Assembly (NCBI GenBank): GCA_903862935.1
Contig: CAIOZY010000019.1
Span: 1 to 64,000 of the forward strand
Length of the DNA stretch: 64,000 bases
Direction of reading: 5' to 3'
From: an uncultured Opitutaceae bacterium
Lineage (GTDB): Bacteria; Verrucomicrobiota; Verrucomicrobiia; Opitutales; Opitutaceae
Shown: piece after piece, positions 30,740 to 51,486 of the stretch
Numbering within the stretch: position 1 is the first letter of the stretch
Layout of the letters: every line of letters starts with the position of its first letter
Made by a program: the position numbers and the translations under genes
The notes under the pieces: model-generated
Databases searched by the model: none
Told to the model about the DNA's origin: nothing
Seen by the model: only the letters and a program-made list of their open reading frames with translations

Positions 30740-30815
30740 GGGCTCGTAGCTCAGTTGGAAGAGCGCCGCAATGGCATTGCGGAGGTCGTCAGTTCGATCC
30801 TGATCGGGTCCACCA
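30740..30815 (+). tRNA. tRNA-Ala (anticodon GGC)
   Basis: A 76-base cloverleaf. The acceptor arms GGGCTCG and CGGGTCC pair over seven positions with two G-U pairs. The D arm is GCTC/GAGC, the anticodon stem CCGCA/TGCGG holds loop ATGGCAT (anticodon GGC), the variable loop is five bases, and the T arm GTCAG/CTGAT encloses TTCGATC. The CCA end is encoded in the DNA. It reads GCC (and GCU) alanine codons, the commonest alanine codons in a high-GC genome. Confidence 0.95.
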
Positions 30816-44449: not shown

Positions 44450-46216
44450 TTATCCCCCCGGTTGTTGTCCACACACGCCGAGGTCCTTGGGATAGATTTT
44501 GGGCGGTGGCTGCTCGGGCAGTTGCCAACCGAGAGCGTCGATGATGGCCTGCTGAGGGGGTTCGGGCTGGGTGATGCGTTCCAGGCAGAGCTGGCGTCCG
44601 TCTCGAAGGTTGAACCAGACCTCGACGAGCTGCATGCGTCCGAGTTGATCGAAGACGGCGGCGGGCATGAGACCTGGAGCGGCCGGGCGAAGTTGATTGC
44701 GCAGACAGGCCCAGAGGGCGTAGCCGAGAAACGCCACAAGGACGTGTGCTTCGACGCGGGGTTGGGTATAGTGCCAGATGGGACGTACCCCGAGTTCGCT
44801 CTTAAAGACTCGAAACGCCGCTTCGACCTCCGAGAGCTGCACATAGCGGCGCCAGAGGTCGGTGGGATCGGTGGACGTCAGATTGGTGCGCAGCAGATAG
44901 GCGCCGTCGCGCCAGGCGGCCTTGCGCAGGCGCTCGCGGTCCCAGCGCCAGGACAGTTTTTTGCCGTCGAACTCGACGTGGACGTAATGCCAGGCGCGTC
45001 CGTGGCGTTCCTCCAGGCGGCCCAGTCGGCGCCACACCCGGTCGGGCCGCACGCGGCCCCTCCACCAGGATCTGCGCAGCCGGATGAGATCGCGCATAAG
45101 GCCGCGCACAATCCGGGTGCGCATCGCCTGTTCCTTGGCCGCGCGGGGGCGGCTGCGGGCGAGGACGTAGGTCTCAGCGTCTTCCGGCAGGAGCTTCACC
45201 TCCACCTCGGGCGAAATGGCCTGCCAGTCCTGGGTCAGCAGATGCGCCTCGCGGGGGCCCAAAGCAGAGCGCGGGGCTCCGACCAGGTAGTGGCCGCCGC
45301 GGGCGCGCAGCTCATCCAGGTTGTCCTCAGAAACGATCCCGCGGTCAAAAACCCAGACCCGGCCCATCTTCCCATGGCGCGCTTCCACGTGGTCGATCAT
45401 CGGCAGCAGCGTCGTCACATCGACCCGGTTGCCGTCGAAAAGCTCATAGGCGACAGGTAGACCCTCAGGGGTGACGATCAGCGCGAGGACCACCTGCTCG
45501 CAGTCAGGCCGGTGATCCCGCGAATAGCCTCGGGCGGCTTGCTCCACCTCGGCGGCCTCGCCCTCAAAATACGAGCTCGTCAGATCATACAGCAGGAGAT
45601 CACACGTGACCCCGAAAAGGTCCTTCCAGCGCCGGGCCAGGTGTTGCTCCAAATCGGCCTTGTGCGGCAGGAGCCGGTCGAGCGCCCGGTAGAGTCGGTC
45701 CTTCTCCGCCACCGCCGCGTCCGTGTCCAGCAGCCATCCAATCGCGCTCTGTGGATAAAACTGCTTATGCACCGATAACTCGGAGCCGGGGGAGCACAGC
45801 CGGCTGACCACCAACAGCTCGATCACCTTCGCCCAAGGCACCATCCCGGGCTCGTCTTCGAGCCGCGCGGCAAAGAACCCATCCAGGTCGAGCTGCCCCC
45901 ACAGCTTCGTCGCCGCCCAGCAGTCGCCAAACCTCCGTGGCCGCCGCACGCTCAGGCTGGAAAGCACCACCTCCACACAATCCGCTTGCGCCGGCGCCGG
46001 GCGCCCCGCCCACAACTGCATCTGGCGCTCCTCGCCACTCTCCGTCAACACCGCGATCGTGCGCTCCCACTGCTCAACTTGGGATCCCTGCAACTCTCCC
46101 AGATGCAGCACCTGCCGTTGCACCACTCGCCGCCGCGACACCCGCACGCTCTCGCAGAGCGAATAGTAAACGTGCTCTTTGCCGTGCCGCTTCACACGGT
46201 GCGTCTTCAAGTGCAT
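44450..46216 (-). CDS. IS1634-family (IS4 superfamily) transposase
   Basis: A 588-residue DDE transposase. The first catalytic Asp is Asp211 in LLYDLTSSYF, the second Asp291 in WVFDRGIVSE. The Glu is Glu463 or Glu465 in QLSEVEAAFRVFKSELGVRPI (cited in parts), followed by H...R...H and a hydrophobic C-terminal helix, which is the IS1634 arrangement. The N-terminal segment is basic, as expected for end binding. The gene is intact from ATG 46216 and ends 43 bp inside the left end of the element. Confidence 0.93.
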   Translation of the reverse strand: MHLKTHRVKRHGKEHVYYSLCESVRVSRRRVVQRQVLHLGELQGSQVEQWERTIAVLTESGEERQMQLWAGRPAPAQADCVEVVLSSLSVRRPRRFGDCWAATKLWGQLDLDGFFAARLEDEPGMVPWAKVIELLVVSRLCSPGSELSVHKQFYPQSAIGWLLDTDAAVAEKDRLYRALDRLLPHKADLEQHLARRWKDLFGVTCDLLLYDLTSSYFEGEAAEVEQAARGYSRDHRPDCEQVVLALIVTPEGLPVAYELFDGNRVDVTTLLPMIDHVEARHGKMGRVWVFDRGIVSEDNLDELRARGGHYLVGAPRSALGPREAHLLTQDWQAISPEVEVKLLPEDAETYVLARSRPRAAKEQAMRTRIVRGLMRDLIRLRRSWWRGRVRPDRVWRRLGRLEERHGRAWHYVHVEFDGKKLSWRWDRERLRKAAWRDGAYLLRTNLTSTDPTDLWRRYVQLSEVEAAFRVFKSELGVRPIWHYTQPRVEAHVLVAFLGYALWACLRNQLRPAAPGLMPAAVFDQLGRMQLVEVWFNLRDGRQLCLERITQPEPPQQAIIDALGWQLPEQPPPKIYPKDLGVCGQQPGG

Positions 46217-46918: not shown

Positions 46919-49477
46919 ATGCCGGAGAGCGAGAAGACAACCCCGATGATGCAGCAGTACCTGGAGGTGAAGCGCGGGCTGCCGCGCGGCACGATGCTGC
47001 TGTTCCGACTGGGCGACTTCTTTGAGATGTTCTTCGAGGACGCCGTTGATGCCTCCAGACTGCTCGGGCTCACCCTCACCAAGCGCCAGGACCACCCCAT
47101 GGCCGGGATCCCGTACCATGCGGTGGACAGCTATGCGACGAAGCTGCTGGGCGCGGGCCGGAAGGTCGCGATCTGCGACCAGCAGGAGGCTGCACGCCCG
47201 GGCAAGCTCGTGCGCCGCCAGCTGACTCGCATCCTGAGCCCGGGGACCACGATCGCGGCAGGCCAGCTCGAGGCCGTCCGAAACCACTATCTGGCCGCGG
47301 TGGCGATCGACCCGAGGGGACTCCACGCCGCCTGGCTCGACCTGTCGACCGGGGAGTTCAAGGTGGCGACCGATCCGAAGGTCGAAAACCTCCTGCCCGT
47401 CCTGGCAGCCCTTGCGCCGGACGAACTGCTGGTCGCCGAGGGCGAGCCCGCGCGCTGGCAGGCCGCCCCGCACGGGGAGACTGCGGTGCACGGCCTGCAC
47501 GCCTTCGCCGCGGGGAGGATGTGCTCGGAACTTCCCGGGTACCACTTCGATCCGAACTCAGGCGCCCGGGACGTCATGGCCGCCCTGGGCGTCCTGAACC
47601 TGAACGGCTACGGAATCGACGCGGCGCACCCCGCCCTCGGGCCCGCCGGGGCGCTCGTTCGGTACGCGACCGAGAACCTCTGCGCCAAGCCCCAGAACCT
47701 GCGCGGGCTCCAGGAGTACCGCAGCGCCCGGACGCTCCTGCTCGATCCGGCGACCCTGCGCAACCTGGAGATCTTCGCCTCGAGCCGGGGCGTGCGCGAC
47801 GACTCCCTCATGGCGGCGGTAGACCGGACGTCGAGCTCGGCGGGAACGCGCCTGCTGGAGCGCTGGCTTGCGGCCCCCACCCTCGACCTGCCTGAGATCC
47901 GGCGGCGGCAGGCCCTGGTCGGTGAATTGTCCGCACAGCCGGCGCGGCTCGCCGGGCTGCGCGAGCGCCTGGCCCGGGTCCGGGACATTCCGAGGATCCT
48001 CGGCCGGCTTCAGAACCGCCTCCGGACCCCCCGGGAGCTGGGAGGAATACGGGACACGCTTCGAGAGCTGCCGGAGATCAAGGCGGCCGTCGCCTCCGTC
48101 GGCCCGGCCCGAGAGGTTGCCGAGCTCGGGTCGAGGCTCGCCGACCTTCCGCATTTGGATGCGAAACTCTCGTCGGCCCTCAGCGACGAGCTGCCCGCGG
48201 CCCTCGAGGACGGAAACTTCATCCGGCCCGGCTACGACGCCGAATTGGACCGGCTCCGGGAGCTGACGAGCGGCAACCGCACCTGGCTTTCCGACCTGGA
48301 GAAGTCTGAGCAGGAGCGGACCGGGATCAGGAGCCTGAAGGTCCGCTTCACAAACAACTTTGGCTACTACATCGAGGTCACCAAGGCCAACCTCCACCTG
48401 GTGCCGGCCGACTACGTACGCCGCCAGACGACCGTCGGGGGCGAGCGCTACGTGACGGAGGACCTTAGGCGCAAGGAAAAGGAGATCTTCCACGCCGAGG
48501 AGAACGCGCTGAACCGGGAGAGGGAATTGTTCCAGGGGCTGCTTGAGGCCGTGCTCGGAGAGTCCCAGGCCCTGACCCGGACGGCCGACGCCCTGGCCGA
48601 GCTGGACGTCATCGCGGGCTGGGCCGTCCTCGCCCGCGAGTGGGACTACTGCCGGCCCGAGGTCGACGAGAGCGGGGTTCTCGAGGTCGTCGAGGGCCGC
48701 CACCCGGTCGTCGAGCAGATGCTGCGCAGCCCCGGCGCGCGGCCGGCCGGGGCCGGCCCGGAGTTCGTGCCAAACGACGCGACCCTCTCCTGCGAGGAAA
48801 CGCAGATCGCGCTGATCACCGGTCCCAACATGGCCGGCAAGTCCACCTACATCCGGCAGGTGGCCCTGATCGCGCTTCTGGCCCACATCGGCTGCTGGGT
48901 GCCCGCCCGCTCCTGCCGCATGGGGCTTGTGGACCGGATCTTCTCGCGGGTCGGGGCGAGCGACGACCTGGCCCGCGGCAACTCGACCTTCATGGTCGAG
49001 ATGAACGAGACGGCGAACATCCTCAACAATGCGACCGAACGCTCGCTGATCATCCTCGATGAGATCGGCCGGGGCACATCGACCTACGACGGGCTGAGCA
49101 TCGCCTGGGCCGTGGTCGAGCACCTGCACCGCGACCCCGAGCGGGGCCCGCGGACCCTGTTCGCCACCCACTACCAGGAGCTGACCCAGCTGGAGGGGCA
49201 CCTGCCCCGGCTTCGCAACTTCTCGGTCGCGGTCAAGGAGTGGAACGAGGACATCGTGTTCGTGCGGCGCGTGGTCCCCGGGGCCACGGACCGCAGCTAC
49301 GGCATCCAGGTCGCCCGCCTTGCGGGCCTGCCCATTTCGGTGATCGACCGGGCAAAGGCGATCCTGGGGCGGCTCGAAAGCGACGAGGCGAGCGTCACGG
49401 TGTCCGCGCCCCAGGCCCGCCCGAAGAAGAAGATCACGGTCGCCCCGCCGGAGGACAGCCAGATGAAGCTGCTCTAG
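46919..49477 (+). CDS. mutS: DNA mismatch repair protein MutS
   Basis: An 852-residue full-length MutS. Mismatch-reading motif F34-F-E36 in LGDFFEMFFEDA lies in domain I, followed by connector, core and clamp domains. The ATPase domain has Walker A GPNMAGKS (635-642), the STFMVEMNETANIL segment, Walker B LIILDEIGRGTST, and TLFATHYQEL. The C-terminus has a short basic segment KKKITV. No mutL is in the window. The 3' end overlaps the DAHP synthase stop by four bases, converging. Confidence 0.96.
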   Translation: MPESEKTTPMMQQYLEVKRGLPRGTMLLFRLGDFFEMFFEDAVDASRLLGLTLTKRQDHPMAGIPYHAVDSYATKLLGAGRKVAICDQQEAARPGKLVRRQLTRILSPGTTIAAGQLEAVRNHYLAAVAIDPRGLHAAWLDLSTGEFKVATDPKVENLLPVLAALAPDELLVAEGEPARWQAAPHGETAVHGLHAFAAGRMCSELPGYHFDPNSGARDVMAALGVLNLNGYGIDAAHPALGPAGALVRYATENLCAKPQNLRGLQEYRSARTLLLDPATLRNLEIFASSRGVRDDSLMAAVDRTSSSAGTRLLERWLAAPTLDLPEIRRRQALVGELSAQPARLAGLRERLARVRDIPRILGRLQNRLRTPRELGGIRDTLRELPEIKAAVASVGPAREVAELGSRLADLPHLDAKLSSALSDELPAALEDGNFIRPGYDAELDRLRELTSGNRTWLSDLEKSEQERTGIRSLKVRFTNNFGYYIEVTKANLHLVPADYVRRQTTVGGERYVTEDLRRKEKEIFHAEENALNRERELFQGLLEAVLGESQALTRTADALAELDVIAGWAVLAREWDYCRPEVDESGVLEVVEGRHPVVEQMLRSPGARPAGAGPEFVPNDATLSCEETQIALITGPNMAGKSTYIRQVALIALLAHIGCWVPARSCRMGLVDRIFSRVGASDDLARGNSTFMVEMNETANILNNATERSLIILDEIGRGTSTYDGLSIAWAVVEHLHRDPERGPRTLFATHYQELTQLEGHLPRLRNFSVAVKEWNEDIVFVRRVVPGATDRSYGIQVARLAGLPISVIDRAKAILGRLESDEASVTVSAPQARPKKKITVAPPEDSQMKLL

Positions 49478-50517
49478 CCGCGCGATGAGCGCCGCAGTTC
49501 CCAGACCTTGCGGGCCTCCGCGACCGTGCGGGCCAGGGCATCGGGGGTAAGCGCCTGCTTGGGGTCGTCGCCGATCCCGTGGCTCGGGCTCACGTGGGTC
49601 TCGATCGACAGCCCGTCGGCCCCGTAGGCCACGGCGGCCAGGGCGCAGGCGGGGACGTAGGAGGCCTTGCCGACCGCATGGGACGGGTCCACGACCACGG
49701 AGGCCCACGTCTTCTCCTTGAGCAGCGGGATGATGCTCTCGTCGGGATAGTTTCGGTAGCCGTCGAGCGCGGGCGCGGTCCCCCGCGGACAGAGGATCAC
49801 GTTGGGGTTGCCGAAGGAGGCGATGTACTCGGCGGCGAGGATGAACTCGTTCAAAGTCCCCATGTGCAGGCCCCTCTTGAGCAGGACCGCCACCTTGTTC
49901 TTGCCCGCGATCGTTTTTCCTATCGCGCGCAGCAGCGAGTAGTTCAGGGCGTTGCGCGCGCCCACCTGAAGCAGCGTCACTCCGGCCGCCAGGGCGAGTT
50001 TAACGTGCCCCTCGTCCATGACCTCCGTGACGACCGGAAGCCCGGTCCTCCGTGAGGCCTCCATCAGGATGTCGAGCGACTTCGAGTCGCCCTGGAACGT
50101 GTAGGGATTGGTGCGCGGCTTCCAGACTCCGCCTCGCAGGACGTGGGCGCCGGCCGCCTTCACGGCCTCGGCCGTCTCCAGCAGATAGCCCGGGTTCTTC
50201 GGGTCCACGGTGCACGGGCCCGCGATCACCAGCAGCTCCGTGCCGAGGGTCACCCCGCCCACTTCGAGCCTTCCGTTGGCCAGGTCAGAGCGGCGGTCCA
50301 TGAGCTTGAACGGCGACTGGATCCGGTCGATCCGGTCGATGTAGGCCAGCCCCTCGAGCCGGTTGATCATGAGCTCGTCGCGCTCGTCGCCGACGATGGC
50401 GTAGATCGTGCGCACGGCGCCCTCGATCGGCTGGATCTTGCAGCCGAATTCCGCGACGATCGCGGTCACCTCGTTGAGCTGCTCGGGGCTGAGATGGTTG
50501 GACTTGGGTAGGATCAT
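49474..50517 (-). CDS. aroF: 3-deoxy-7-phosphoheptulonate (DAHP) synthase, type I-beta with regulatory domain
   Basis: A 347-residue enzyme that condenses phosphoenolpyruvate and erythrose 4-phosphate, the first shikimate step. Residues about 1-75 form the ferredoxin-like regulatory domain of the I-beta group (SNHLSPEQLNEV...). The catalytic barrel has AGPCTVD, LRGGVWKPRTNPYTFQG (in part), VTEVMDEG, LLQVGARN, VLLKRG, LCPRG and VVDPSHAVGKA, including the metal and PEP ligands. The N-terminal domain usually mediates feedback by an aromatic amino acid. Upstream lie a leader reading frame and terminator-like hairpin, indicating attenuation as a second control. Confidence 0.94.
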   Translation of the reverse strand: MILPKSNHLSPEQLNEVTAIVAEFGCKIQPIEGAVRTIYAIVGDERDELMINRLEGLAYIDRIDRIQSPFKLMDRRSDLANGRLEVGGVTLGTELLVIAGPCTVDPKNPGYLLETAEAVKAAGAHVLRGGVWKPRTNPYTFQGDSKSLDILMEASRRTGLPVVTEVMDEGHVKLALAAGVTLLQVGARNALNYSLLRAIGKTIAGKNKVAVLLKRGLHMGTLNEFILAAEYIASFGNPNVILCPRGTAPALDGYRNYPDESIIPLLKEKTWASVVVDPSHAVGKASYVPACALAAVAYGADGLSIETHVSPSHGIGDDPKQALTPDALARTVAEARKVWELRRSSRG

Positions 50518-50548
50518 GGCTTGGGGACCGCAGGGCTCCTAAAACGCA

Positions 50549-50575
50549 AGAGCCGCCTTCCGGTGAGGCGGCTCT
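50549..50575 (-). terminator. Putative attenuator/terminator upstream of DAHP synthase
   Basis: A 10-bp perfect stem (50549-50558 with 50566-50575) encloses a 7-base loop. On the minus strand it is followed by TTGCGTTTT, a weak T-rich tail, about 31 bases before the aroF start. It lies about 28 bases past the stop of the leader reading frame. It can act as the terminator arm of an attenuator, or simply end transcription coming from the upstream rluA-type gene. Confidence 0.6.
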
Positions 50576-50603
50576 CGGCGAAGGGCCTGCGGTCGGTGCA
50601 GGT

Positions 50604-50678
50604 TCAGGCTTCGCGGCGGCCGCCGGATAGAGCCGGGGCAAAAAAGTGAGTAAAGTAGCCTTGGGGCGCGCCGCTCAT
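50604..50678 (-). CDS. Aromatic amino-acid leader peptide (24 residues)
   Basis: The frame from ATG 50678 to TGA 50604-50606 encodes MSGAPQGYFTHFF followed by 11 further residues, ending GGRREA. A cluster of Tyr-Phe-Thr-His-Phe-Phe, four aromatic biosynthetic residues in six codons, sits directly upstream of a terminator-like hairpin and a DAHP synthase gene, the arrangement of phe-type leader peptides. No strong Shine-Dalgarno is seen before the ATG. Between stop and hairpin there is a 5-bp hairpin (50586-50602), and the leader codons GGCGGCCGCC (50615-50624) could pair with the terminator's GCCGCC arm as an antiterminator. Regulation by Phe or Tyr level is inferred. Confidence 0.6.
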   Translation of the reverse strand: MSGAPQGYFTHFFAPALSGGRREA

Positions 50679-50715
50679 GTCAGGATGGTGGATGTGGATA
50701 CCCCGGCCCGGCTTG

Positions 50716-51486
50716 TCAACGCGTTTGTCCGCCGGGTCCGACAGCAGCCTCAAACTCAGCCGGCAGAGCAGAGCGCGCCGAGAACGCATAGGTCCGGCCC
50801 CGGAAGGCGTAGTCAAGCGAGCTCTCCAGCGAATGCAGGAACAGCCGCTTGGTCCCGGCCTGCTTGGCGAAGGCGCGGTTGGCCCTGAAGTCCCCGTAGG
50901 TCTGGTCCCCGACGATGGGGAGCCCCCGCTTCGCGCACTGGACCCGAAGCTGGTGGCTCCTGCCGGTCCCCGGCTCGAGCCTCAGCAGAGAAATCCTCGG
51001 CAGCCCATTGCCCCGGCGGACGAGCTTCATCAGGCACTCTGCGGCGACGGCTCCGCCCGGGGCCGACCGCACGATGCCGCCCCGCTTGACGATTTCCAGC
51101 CGGTCCCTCCATGCCTCCTCGGGCCGCACCGGGGCGCCAAAGACCGCAGCCGCGTAGGCCTTGCTCATCTGCCTCTTCCGGAACTGCTCCTTGACCTCGC
51201 GCGCAAGCTCCGGGCCCGAGGCCACGAGGATCACCCCCGAGGTGGCCGAGTCGAGCCGGTTCAAAAGCCACAGGCGCAGTGGCCCCTCGGGGCCCTCCCA
51301 CTCGTAAACCTCCCCGTCAAGCCGGTATGGGGCGACGAGGAGGGAGCGCGGTTCCTCCCCGGCCCGGTTGGGATGGGACAGGACCCCGGCGGGCTTGTCC
51401 AGGGCGGCCAGTCCGTTCTCGTCGCGGGCGAGCAGCCGGACCCCGGGCCCGAGCGGCAGGCCCGCCCAGAAATCCTGCGTCTTCAC
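50716..51486 (-). CDS. RluA-family pseudouridine synthase
   Basis: A 256-residue RNA pseudouridine synthase. The catalytic Asp79 is in NRLDSATSGV, the RluA-type NRLD/HRLD motif. LDKPAGVLSHP precedes it, and LEPGTGRSHQLRVQ further on carries the conserved Arg. No S4 RNA-binding domain is present. The RNA target is unknown. Its start overlaps the TonB-like stop by four bases (ATGA), so the genes are coupled. Confidence 0.87.
   Translation of the reverse strand: MKTQDFWAGLPLGPGVRLLARDENGLAALDKPAGVLSHPNRAGEEPRSLLVAPYRLDGEVYEWEGPEGPLRLWLLNRLDSATSGVILVASGPELAREVKEQFRKRQMSKAYAAAVFGAPVRPEEAWRDRLEIVKRGGIVRSAPGGAVAAECLMKLVRRGNGLPRISLLRLEPGTGRSHQLRVQCAKRGLPIVGDQTYGDFRANRAFAKQAGTKRLFLHSLESSLDYAFRGRTYAFSARSALPAEFEAAVGPGGQTR

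Follow-up and report, generated by a model that had tools for sequence, protein, structure and literature searches.

In the pheA, pheST, and trp leaders of Escherichia coli, a terminating ribosome masks the antiterminator strand, and the leader RNA has the classical 1:2 helix. Leader control has also been reported for DAHP synthase genes, by aroR in Corynebacterium glutamicum (PMC11802643, PMC4046766), and has been proposed for uORFC-13-1, which precedes aroF in Acholeplasma (PMC8632094). The cited accounts of C. glutamicum ilvBNC (PMC11857589) and Sinorhizobium trpL (PMC7298713) describe leaderless leader peptides, in which the transcript begins at the start codon or 1 nt from it. According to a 2010 survey (PMC2965389), leader-peptide attenuators were known from Proteobacteria and Actinobacteria, to which it added one for histidine in Firmicutes; Actinobacteria are also covered in PMC1262725. 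The ilvB-OMG motif, which perhaps contains a uORF, is described as having 41 representatives in various phyla (PMC10272879), which calls for caution about novelty in Verrucomicrobiota.

We analyzed a candidate attenuator upstream of aroF in an uncultured member of the Opitutaceae. Like these E. coli leaders, which PMC11802643 covers, it combines control codons with a choice between antiterminator and terminator. Like aroR-aroF of C. glutamicum, it places a leader peptide (Phe-Tyr-Phe in that species) before a DAHP synthase gene, and like uORFC-13-1, which is a predicted uORF with one or more Phe codons, it has a terminator before aroF. By their published descriptions, both precedents also differ from it in some points. 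C. glutamicum belongs to another phylum, and in the Opitutaceae the aromatic runs are longer and the antiterminator strand lies within the leader ORF or at its end; uORFC-13-1 has a ribosome-binding site and another stem, and it occurs in Acholeplasma and environmental sequences. A first-pass annotation of this DNA had pointed to the apparently non-proteobacterial setting of the element. That setting was borne out by the named AroF relatives, which are Opitutaceae/Verrucomicrobiota, but the C. glutamicum and Acholeplasma cases are precedents, outside Proteobacteria, for leaders of DAHP synthase genes. In the open-licence PMC literature we came across no account of such attenuation by a leader peptide in Opitutaceae or Verrucomicrobiota, which is no proof of absence, and the main texts of PMC11109978, PMC6429828, and PMC2965389 mention neither of these taxa nor aroF. 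Attenuation as a kind of control is well known; what appears to be new, as far as our searches go, is the family, the phylum, and the anatomy, with one strand (A) at a fixed distance from the control codons and an independent hairpin (H1).

The element lies in a 198-nt gap between an rluA-like gene and aroF on the minus strand of the window, the whole 64,000-nt stretch of DNA analyzed here (Table 1). The aroF product matched PF00793 (E = 8e-45) and the ferredoxin-like PF18152 (E = 6e-9) in Pfam, the latter in agreement with the earlier call of a DAHP synthase carrying a regulatory domain, and its PDB relatives include 4grs, 1rzm, and 3pg9. No class II DAHP synthase was found in a search of the window genome, whose assembly is about 96% complete, and the only other AroF match there was weak (E = 6.8e-7) and probably represents a KDO8P synthase. 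Elsewhere in the window, a 588-aa frame that looks transposase-like by eye (44450 to 46216, minus strand) lies a short way upstream of mutS.

Table 1. Features of the aroF leader region, in window coordinates
Feature	Position	Strand	Remarks
aroF, controlled gene	49474..50517	minus	DAHP synthase with N-terminal ferredoxin-like regulatory domain; identified by Pfam, NCBIfam, and PDB relatives
Intrinsic terminator hairpin	50541..50577	minus	Stem 50577-50547, 12 pairs (one G-U); interrupted T tract to 50541
Strand B	50567..50582	minus	TTCGC 50582-50578 and GCCGCC 50572-50567; common to antiterminator and terminator
Leader ORF MSGAPQGYFTHFFAPALSGGRREA	50604..50678	minus	ATG at 50678, 24 codons plus stop; coding selection in the family
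Antiterminator strand A	50609..50624	minus	GGCGGC 50624-50619 and extension GCGAAG 50614-50609, at the end of the ORF
Control codons Tyr-Phe-Thr-His-Phe-Phe	50640..50657	minus	Last Phe codon (50642-50640) ends 15 nt before GGCGGC
TTGACA, putative -35 box	50714..50719	minus	41 nt before the leader start codon; contains the rluA-like stop codon (50718-50716)
rluA-like pseudouridine synthase gene	50716..51486	minus	Directly upstream; context, outside the switch; PF00849 E = 5e-22

The 24-codon frame with its run of aromatic codons, first noticed in the initial annotation, is present ahead of aroF. Judged by itself, the window copy would make only a weak to modest case: it has 4 aromatic codons where shuffles average 2.2, and a fraction of 0.106 of the shuffles have as many or more, which is not significant; the fold of the whole leader gave a z score of -2.44, with 3 of 200 shuffles at least as good. 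Comparison settles the matter. From 241 aroF upstream regions, many of them copies of one genome's region, we kept 53 distinct leaders, selected for a terminator and for TTGAC[A/G] 138 to 180 nt before it. Their frames encode 265 Phe, 106 Tyr, and 25 Trp residues, so that 396 of 1,385 residues (29%) are aromatic, versus 6% and 14% in the other frames, and 52 of the 53 reach at least the 95th percentile of their own shuffles for aromatic content. The peptide of a typical relative (L051) is VNRFSAYYFSFAFRGYFTRKNQGGCREN. This composition supports the earlier idea of aromatic sensing, with the correction that the codons are mainly Phe and then Tyr; it fits an attenuator that would sense Phe and, secondarily, Tyr. 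Among 49 leaders that allowed ungapped comparison, the synonymous ratio of single-base codon differences in the aromatic part was 1.96 in frame 0 and 0.86 and 0.74 in the other frames, taken over all pairs, which are not independent. Read in this way, the codon differences show that the leader frame is under coding selection, and in frame 0 only. One locus (L151, genome G099) has a variant leader before aroF, read by eye as MSHPAQVRYAFRFSSWYFFSTGSTALGRLAHLS, with a terminator and without TTGACA in the usual range.

In 47 of the 53 leaders, exactly 15 nt separate the last aromatic codon from strand A. Some aromatic codon occupies the 15-nt position in 51 (the exceptions are L069 and L201), a count that leans that way since strand A was sought there first; the window copy follows the rule (F-A-P-A-L-S-GG). 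The spacing is kept in leaders whose stop codon comes right after GGCGGC (L009, L048, and L076) and in leaders whose stop comes before GCGGC (L168, L194-L196, and L198). What is constrained thus seems to be the distance along the RNA, not the peptide. At the critical codon, the sixth before GGCGGC, Phe is always encoded by TTT (40 of 40), while at codon -10 TTC predominates (31 of 42 Phe codons); this bias perhaps reflects the composition of the H1 loop or slower decoding.

These features bear on a rival idea, nascent-peptide arrest, in which the signal would be free Phe or Tyr, acting through the leader peptide to halt the ribosome, and not a lack of charged tRNA. Such arrest would resemble that of TnaC. 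The residues that follow the aromatic run are partly conserved (T/A, P/R, and K/Q/R at codons -5 to -3), which would suit peptide arrest, but these codons are also the 3' arm of H1, so RNA pairing can explain their conservation. Phe and Tyr interchange at the critical codon (40 F, 9 Y), and the C terminus varies, ending right after GGCGGC in L009, L048, and L076 and before strand A in L195 and others. Stalling by an excess of amino acid would, moreover, have the wrong sign for a biosynthetic gene. We regard peptide arrest as very unlikely.

A terminator-like stem and tail just before aroF had also been proposed, together with a GGCGGC in the leader that could pair with the 5' arm of the stem. 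The stem was confirmed, with 12 pairs and the tail CGTTTT; a strict consensus terminator scan of the window region returned 0 hits, the T tract being interrupted. The GGCGGC is complementary to the GCCGCC of that arm and was also folded with it, and the resulting antiterminator has a predicted energy of -29.0 kcal/mol in the window copy, compared with -22.3 kcal/mol for the terminator. The two predicted helices are mutually exclusive. Across the 53 leaders, the duplex of strand A with its own strand B averaged -21.3 kcal/mol versus -18.9 kcal/mol for permuted partners, and 0 of 5,000 permutations were as good. Outside the shared core, the helix is extended by GCGAA/TTCGC in 21 leaders, TAAACTG/CAGATTTA in 10, GCAAA/TTTGC in 7, and other pairs in 15. 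The three lineage helix types were defined by having both arms, which makes own-pair energies partly circular; the arm permutation tests are cleaner, though related sequences are not independent. In the terminator stem, 97.5% of cells are paired among 27 leaders picked by eye (see below), and two measures exceeded all 500 shuffles, the covariation score and the count of stem cells with changes on both sides, while two of five covariation measures were not above shuffles (pairs changed on both sides, 2, with 41 of 500; further pair types, 299 of 500). Compensatory changes among relatives, to which the first-pass annotation had looked for confirmation, are thus visible as matching changes in the A:B and terminator arms.

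Could the stem simply terminate rluA, with an ordinary promoter serving aroF and the short frame being incidental? The rluA-like gene does end at 50716, and an RluA match occurs in 67 of 101 aroF loci. Coding selection, the fixed 15-nt spacing, and the matched alternative helix all argue against this reading, as do several leaders that, by eye, have no rluA end directly before them, and we find it highly improbable. A riboswitch or T-box in control of aroF could also account for a leader that is structured and carries a terminator ahead of a biosynthetic gene. The leader had no Rfam match at the gathering score and only chance-level matches at a relaxed threshold, and its conservation tracks codons, which leaves the probability of such an element close to negligible. 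No Rfam family at either threshold gave anything usable for the aroF leader. The Phe_leader family (RF01859) had no match in the window, L043, or L009, its only trace being a score of 25.4 bits (gathering score, 55; E = 0.88) on an ilvD leader, L169. The sole match in the window at the gathering score was a tRNA gene (30740 to 30812, plus strand).

We also considered the classical 1:2 protector pairing, here between strand A and the upstream part of the ORF, and found it unsupported (median duplex z, -0.25). Strand A pairs upstream in 50 of the 53 folds, yet it does so in 85% when the upstream sequence is shuffled, so that the 1:2 helix of the E. coli leaders has no counterpart above shuffles in the Opitutaceae aroF leaders. 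In a footprint model, A:B forms in 52 of 53 leaders when the ribosome is stalled on the last aromatic codon; once the ribosome has moved to the stop codon, all 53 form the terminator, and in 45 the whole of strand A is covered. All three hold for the window leader. When the complete RNA is folded to equilibrium, only 5 of the 53 leaders, the window not among them, retain A:B even with a stalled ribosome, which implies that the switch would have to depend on the order of synthesis, with A:B forming first.

We propose that the element is, very probably, a ribosome-mediated transcription attenuator in this family of Opitutaceae leaders, a reading that upholds in kind the attenuation suggested at the outset. 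The transcript would start at or a few nucleotides before the leader start codon and would be translated while being made. When Phe- or Tyr-tRNA is scarce, the ribosome would stall on the Y-F...F-F codons with its front edge just short of the GGCGGC of strand A; strand A could then pair with strand B as it emerges, the terminator would not form in time, and aroF would be transcribed. When Phe and Tyr are plentiful, the ribosome would reach the stop codon and cover strand A, leaving strand B to pair with strand C, and transcription would end before aroF.

The relatives carry an additional hairpin within the ORF, H1, whose arms, counted back from strand A, lie at about codons -10 to -8 and -5 to -3; in 40 of 51 leaders its loop holds the last aromatic codons. 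Against synonymous shuffles, H1 had z < -1 in 44 of 51 leaders (mean, -1.83; two above 0), compared with a mean z of +0.16 for an upstream control region in 26 leaders, and its own arms were better than permuted arms (0 of 5,000). H1 is not in competition with A:B, and its position would suit an RNA polymerase pause. The window copy lacks H1 (z of -0.1, against a mean of -1.8 in the 51 leaders), so this hairpin could not have been seen in the first-pass annotation, which made no mention of the promoter box either.

Among 27 leaders that were picked regardless of the promoter box, TTGACA was found 35 to 41 nt before the start codon in all 27, and at 35 to 38 nt in 25. Given this spacing and the canonical form of the -35 box, transcription would start at the leader start codon or a few nucleotides from it, and the transcript is perhaps leaderless, a start deduced here from TTGACA spacing, whereas the starts of C. 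glutamicum ilvBNC and Sinorhizobium trpL are described as mapped. None of the 53 leaders has a Shine-Dalgarno-like motif, but none of 53 aroF starts has one either, and among long window frames it occurs in 6 of 38; its absence thus says little, and we dropped it as evidence for leaderless translation. The promoter pattern reads TTGACA-N17-CACnnnT, with a conserved CAC 17 nt after the box, where a -10 element is expected. The first position of that expected -10 element is C, not T, in 52 of the 53 aroF leaders, a set biased for promoter counts by its selection for TTGAC[A/G]. By eye, a similar CA stands at about the same distance before several ilvD leaders.

The 27 leaders come from 99 upstream regions with a recognized aroF start and were picked by eye for a short aromatic-rich frame whose start lies 150 to 227 nt before aroF; other aromatic-rich frames (mostly rluA ends) and L050, whose frame is cut by a contig end, were set aside. 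A terminator scan was positive in 26 of the 27, and the terminator of L109 was seen by other inspection. A model built from these leaders, the window included, matched 44 of 200 sampled genomes of the family at E ≤ 1e-14, the window genome among them, under 11 genus labels by hand count. Of these matches, 43 precede a recognized aroF start and one (G175) is cut by a contig end; 27 of the 44 had been in the model. The leader frame is thus kept among relatives, as the initial reading had implied. Across 240 genomes of the phylum, the same threshold gave 8 matches, all in the same family; the best match outside it was partial (E = 4.4e-6), followed by a leuA leader, L181 (E = 4.9e-6). A second model, built from the 26 relatives without the window, found 50646-50541 (model positions 45 to 145 of 146) at E = 2.2e-10 and no second match in the 64 kb up to E = 10. 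It also recovered 13 of 13 other held-out leader loci (E = 7e-22 to 6.5e-5); of 19 loci that have no leader, it matched none at E ≤ 1. Named relatives place the family in the Opitutaceae, Verrucomicrobiota. Of their 80 loci, 19 carry the leader, including one that a contig end truncates; a cultured bearer is Cephaloticoccus primus CAG34 (L261, 791 to 957).

Among the weaker matches of the aroF-leader model are Ile/Val/Leu-rich leaders before ilvD in part of the Opitutaceae family, for example, MTNSRSLLSINFLATIIIVVVILLTPNTGRLSNT (L169). The ilvD-type leaders (L169-L175, L177, L178, L179, L183, L184, and L187) carry GGGCGGC near the end of the frame and a terminator of the GCCGCCC/GGGCGGC type, and TTGAC[A/C/G] lies 42 to 50 nt before the start in the 11 measured. 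The gene after L169 was assigned to an ilvD subfamily by profile and the others by similarity (81 to 87% in three genera) or by eye. The ilvD of the window genome is of a different type, 48% identical. In another family of Verrucomicrobiota, a leader with a run of Leu codons, MIRSGLLRRLLLLLLLEG (L181, 407 to 535), precedes leuA (PF00682 and PF08502); this leader has TTGACA 34 nt upstream and is followed by a terminator. These leaders tentatively suggest a design shared among aroF, ilvD, and leuA. Six other weak matches (L176, L180, L182, L185, L186, and L188) appear to be chance hits or terminators alone. Before trpE, a rough scan of 30 loci, with orientation guessed from the longest frame, found no terminator-coupled Trp leader; it was not counted.

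We are evenly divided on the broader proposition that the Opitutaceae have an attenuator platform of their own and that it is the first leader-peptide attenuation described for Verrucomicrobiota. Such a platform would consist of a near-leaderless ORF, a pause-type H1 with the last aromatic codons in its loop, and a GGCGGC fixed 15 nt after the last control codon, just clear of the front edge of the stalled ribosome; the layout would be reused with Ile/Val/Leu codons before ilvD, with the Leu-run leader before leuA occurring elsewhere in the phylum. As far as our searches show, this would extend the mechanism to Verrucomicrobiota and would support a repeated origin of ribosome-based sensing. 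The near-invariant 15-nt spacing offers a built-in ruler of the ribosome footprint, and helix arms that differ by lineage lend themselves well to evolutionary tests. The proposal also predicts control of aromatic synthesis in a group that, to our knowledge, has had no such studies.

The distribution of the aroF leader points to a patchy history of gain or loss. On an 86-row AroF tree, the leader label required 7 changes, 6 of them forced by starred branches, compared with a shuffled mean of 18.1. The window AroF fell in a 14-row group of which 13 have the leader (support, 98/88; nearest fork, 80/86), apart from its genus mates, and this placement would fit horizontal gain of aroF with its leader by the window genome. 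The window RluA is no closer to genus mates (57 to 61%) than to its best other relatives (58 to 65%); for pieces of MutS, genus mates are slightly closer (82 to 87% over 154 to 237 aa, versus 75 to 84% over 253 to 381 aa). Among the 10 other same-genus genomes listed, no match went below E = 4.6e-4, and where rluA precedes aroF in genus mates the gap is short and has no leader, which implies that this control would be dispensable.

The absence of the leader from the genus mates examined, together with the shorter aromatic run, the missing H1, and the interrupted T tract, would also be expected if the window copy were a decaying remnant of a once functional attenuator. On the other side, the window copy retains an intact frame and start codon, the 15-nt spacing, the A:B helix together with its GCGAA/TTCGC extension, and the terminator with its 12 pairs. 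We consider decay unlikely, though a good deal less so than the other alternatives raised above, and it overlaps with attenuation in the family instead of excluding it. In six genus mates (L002-L005, L007, and L008), the short gap between rluA and aroF bears by eye another conserved stretch, resembling ATGGACG...TTTGGCA.
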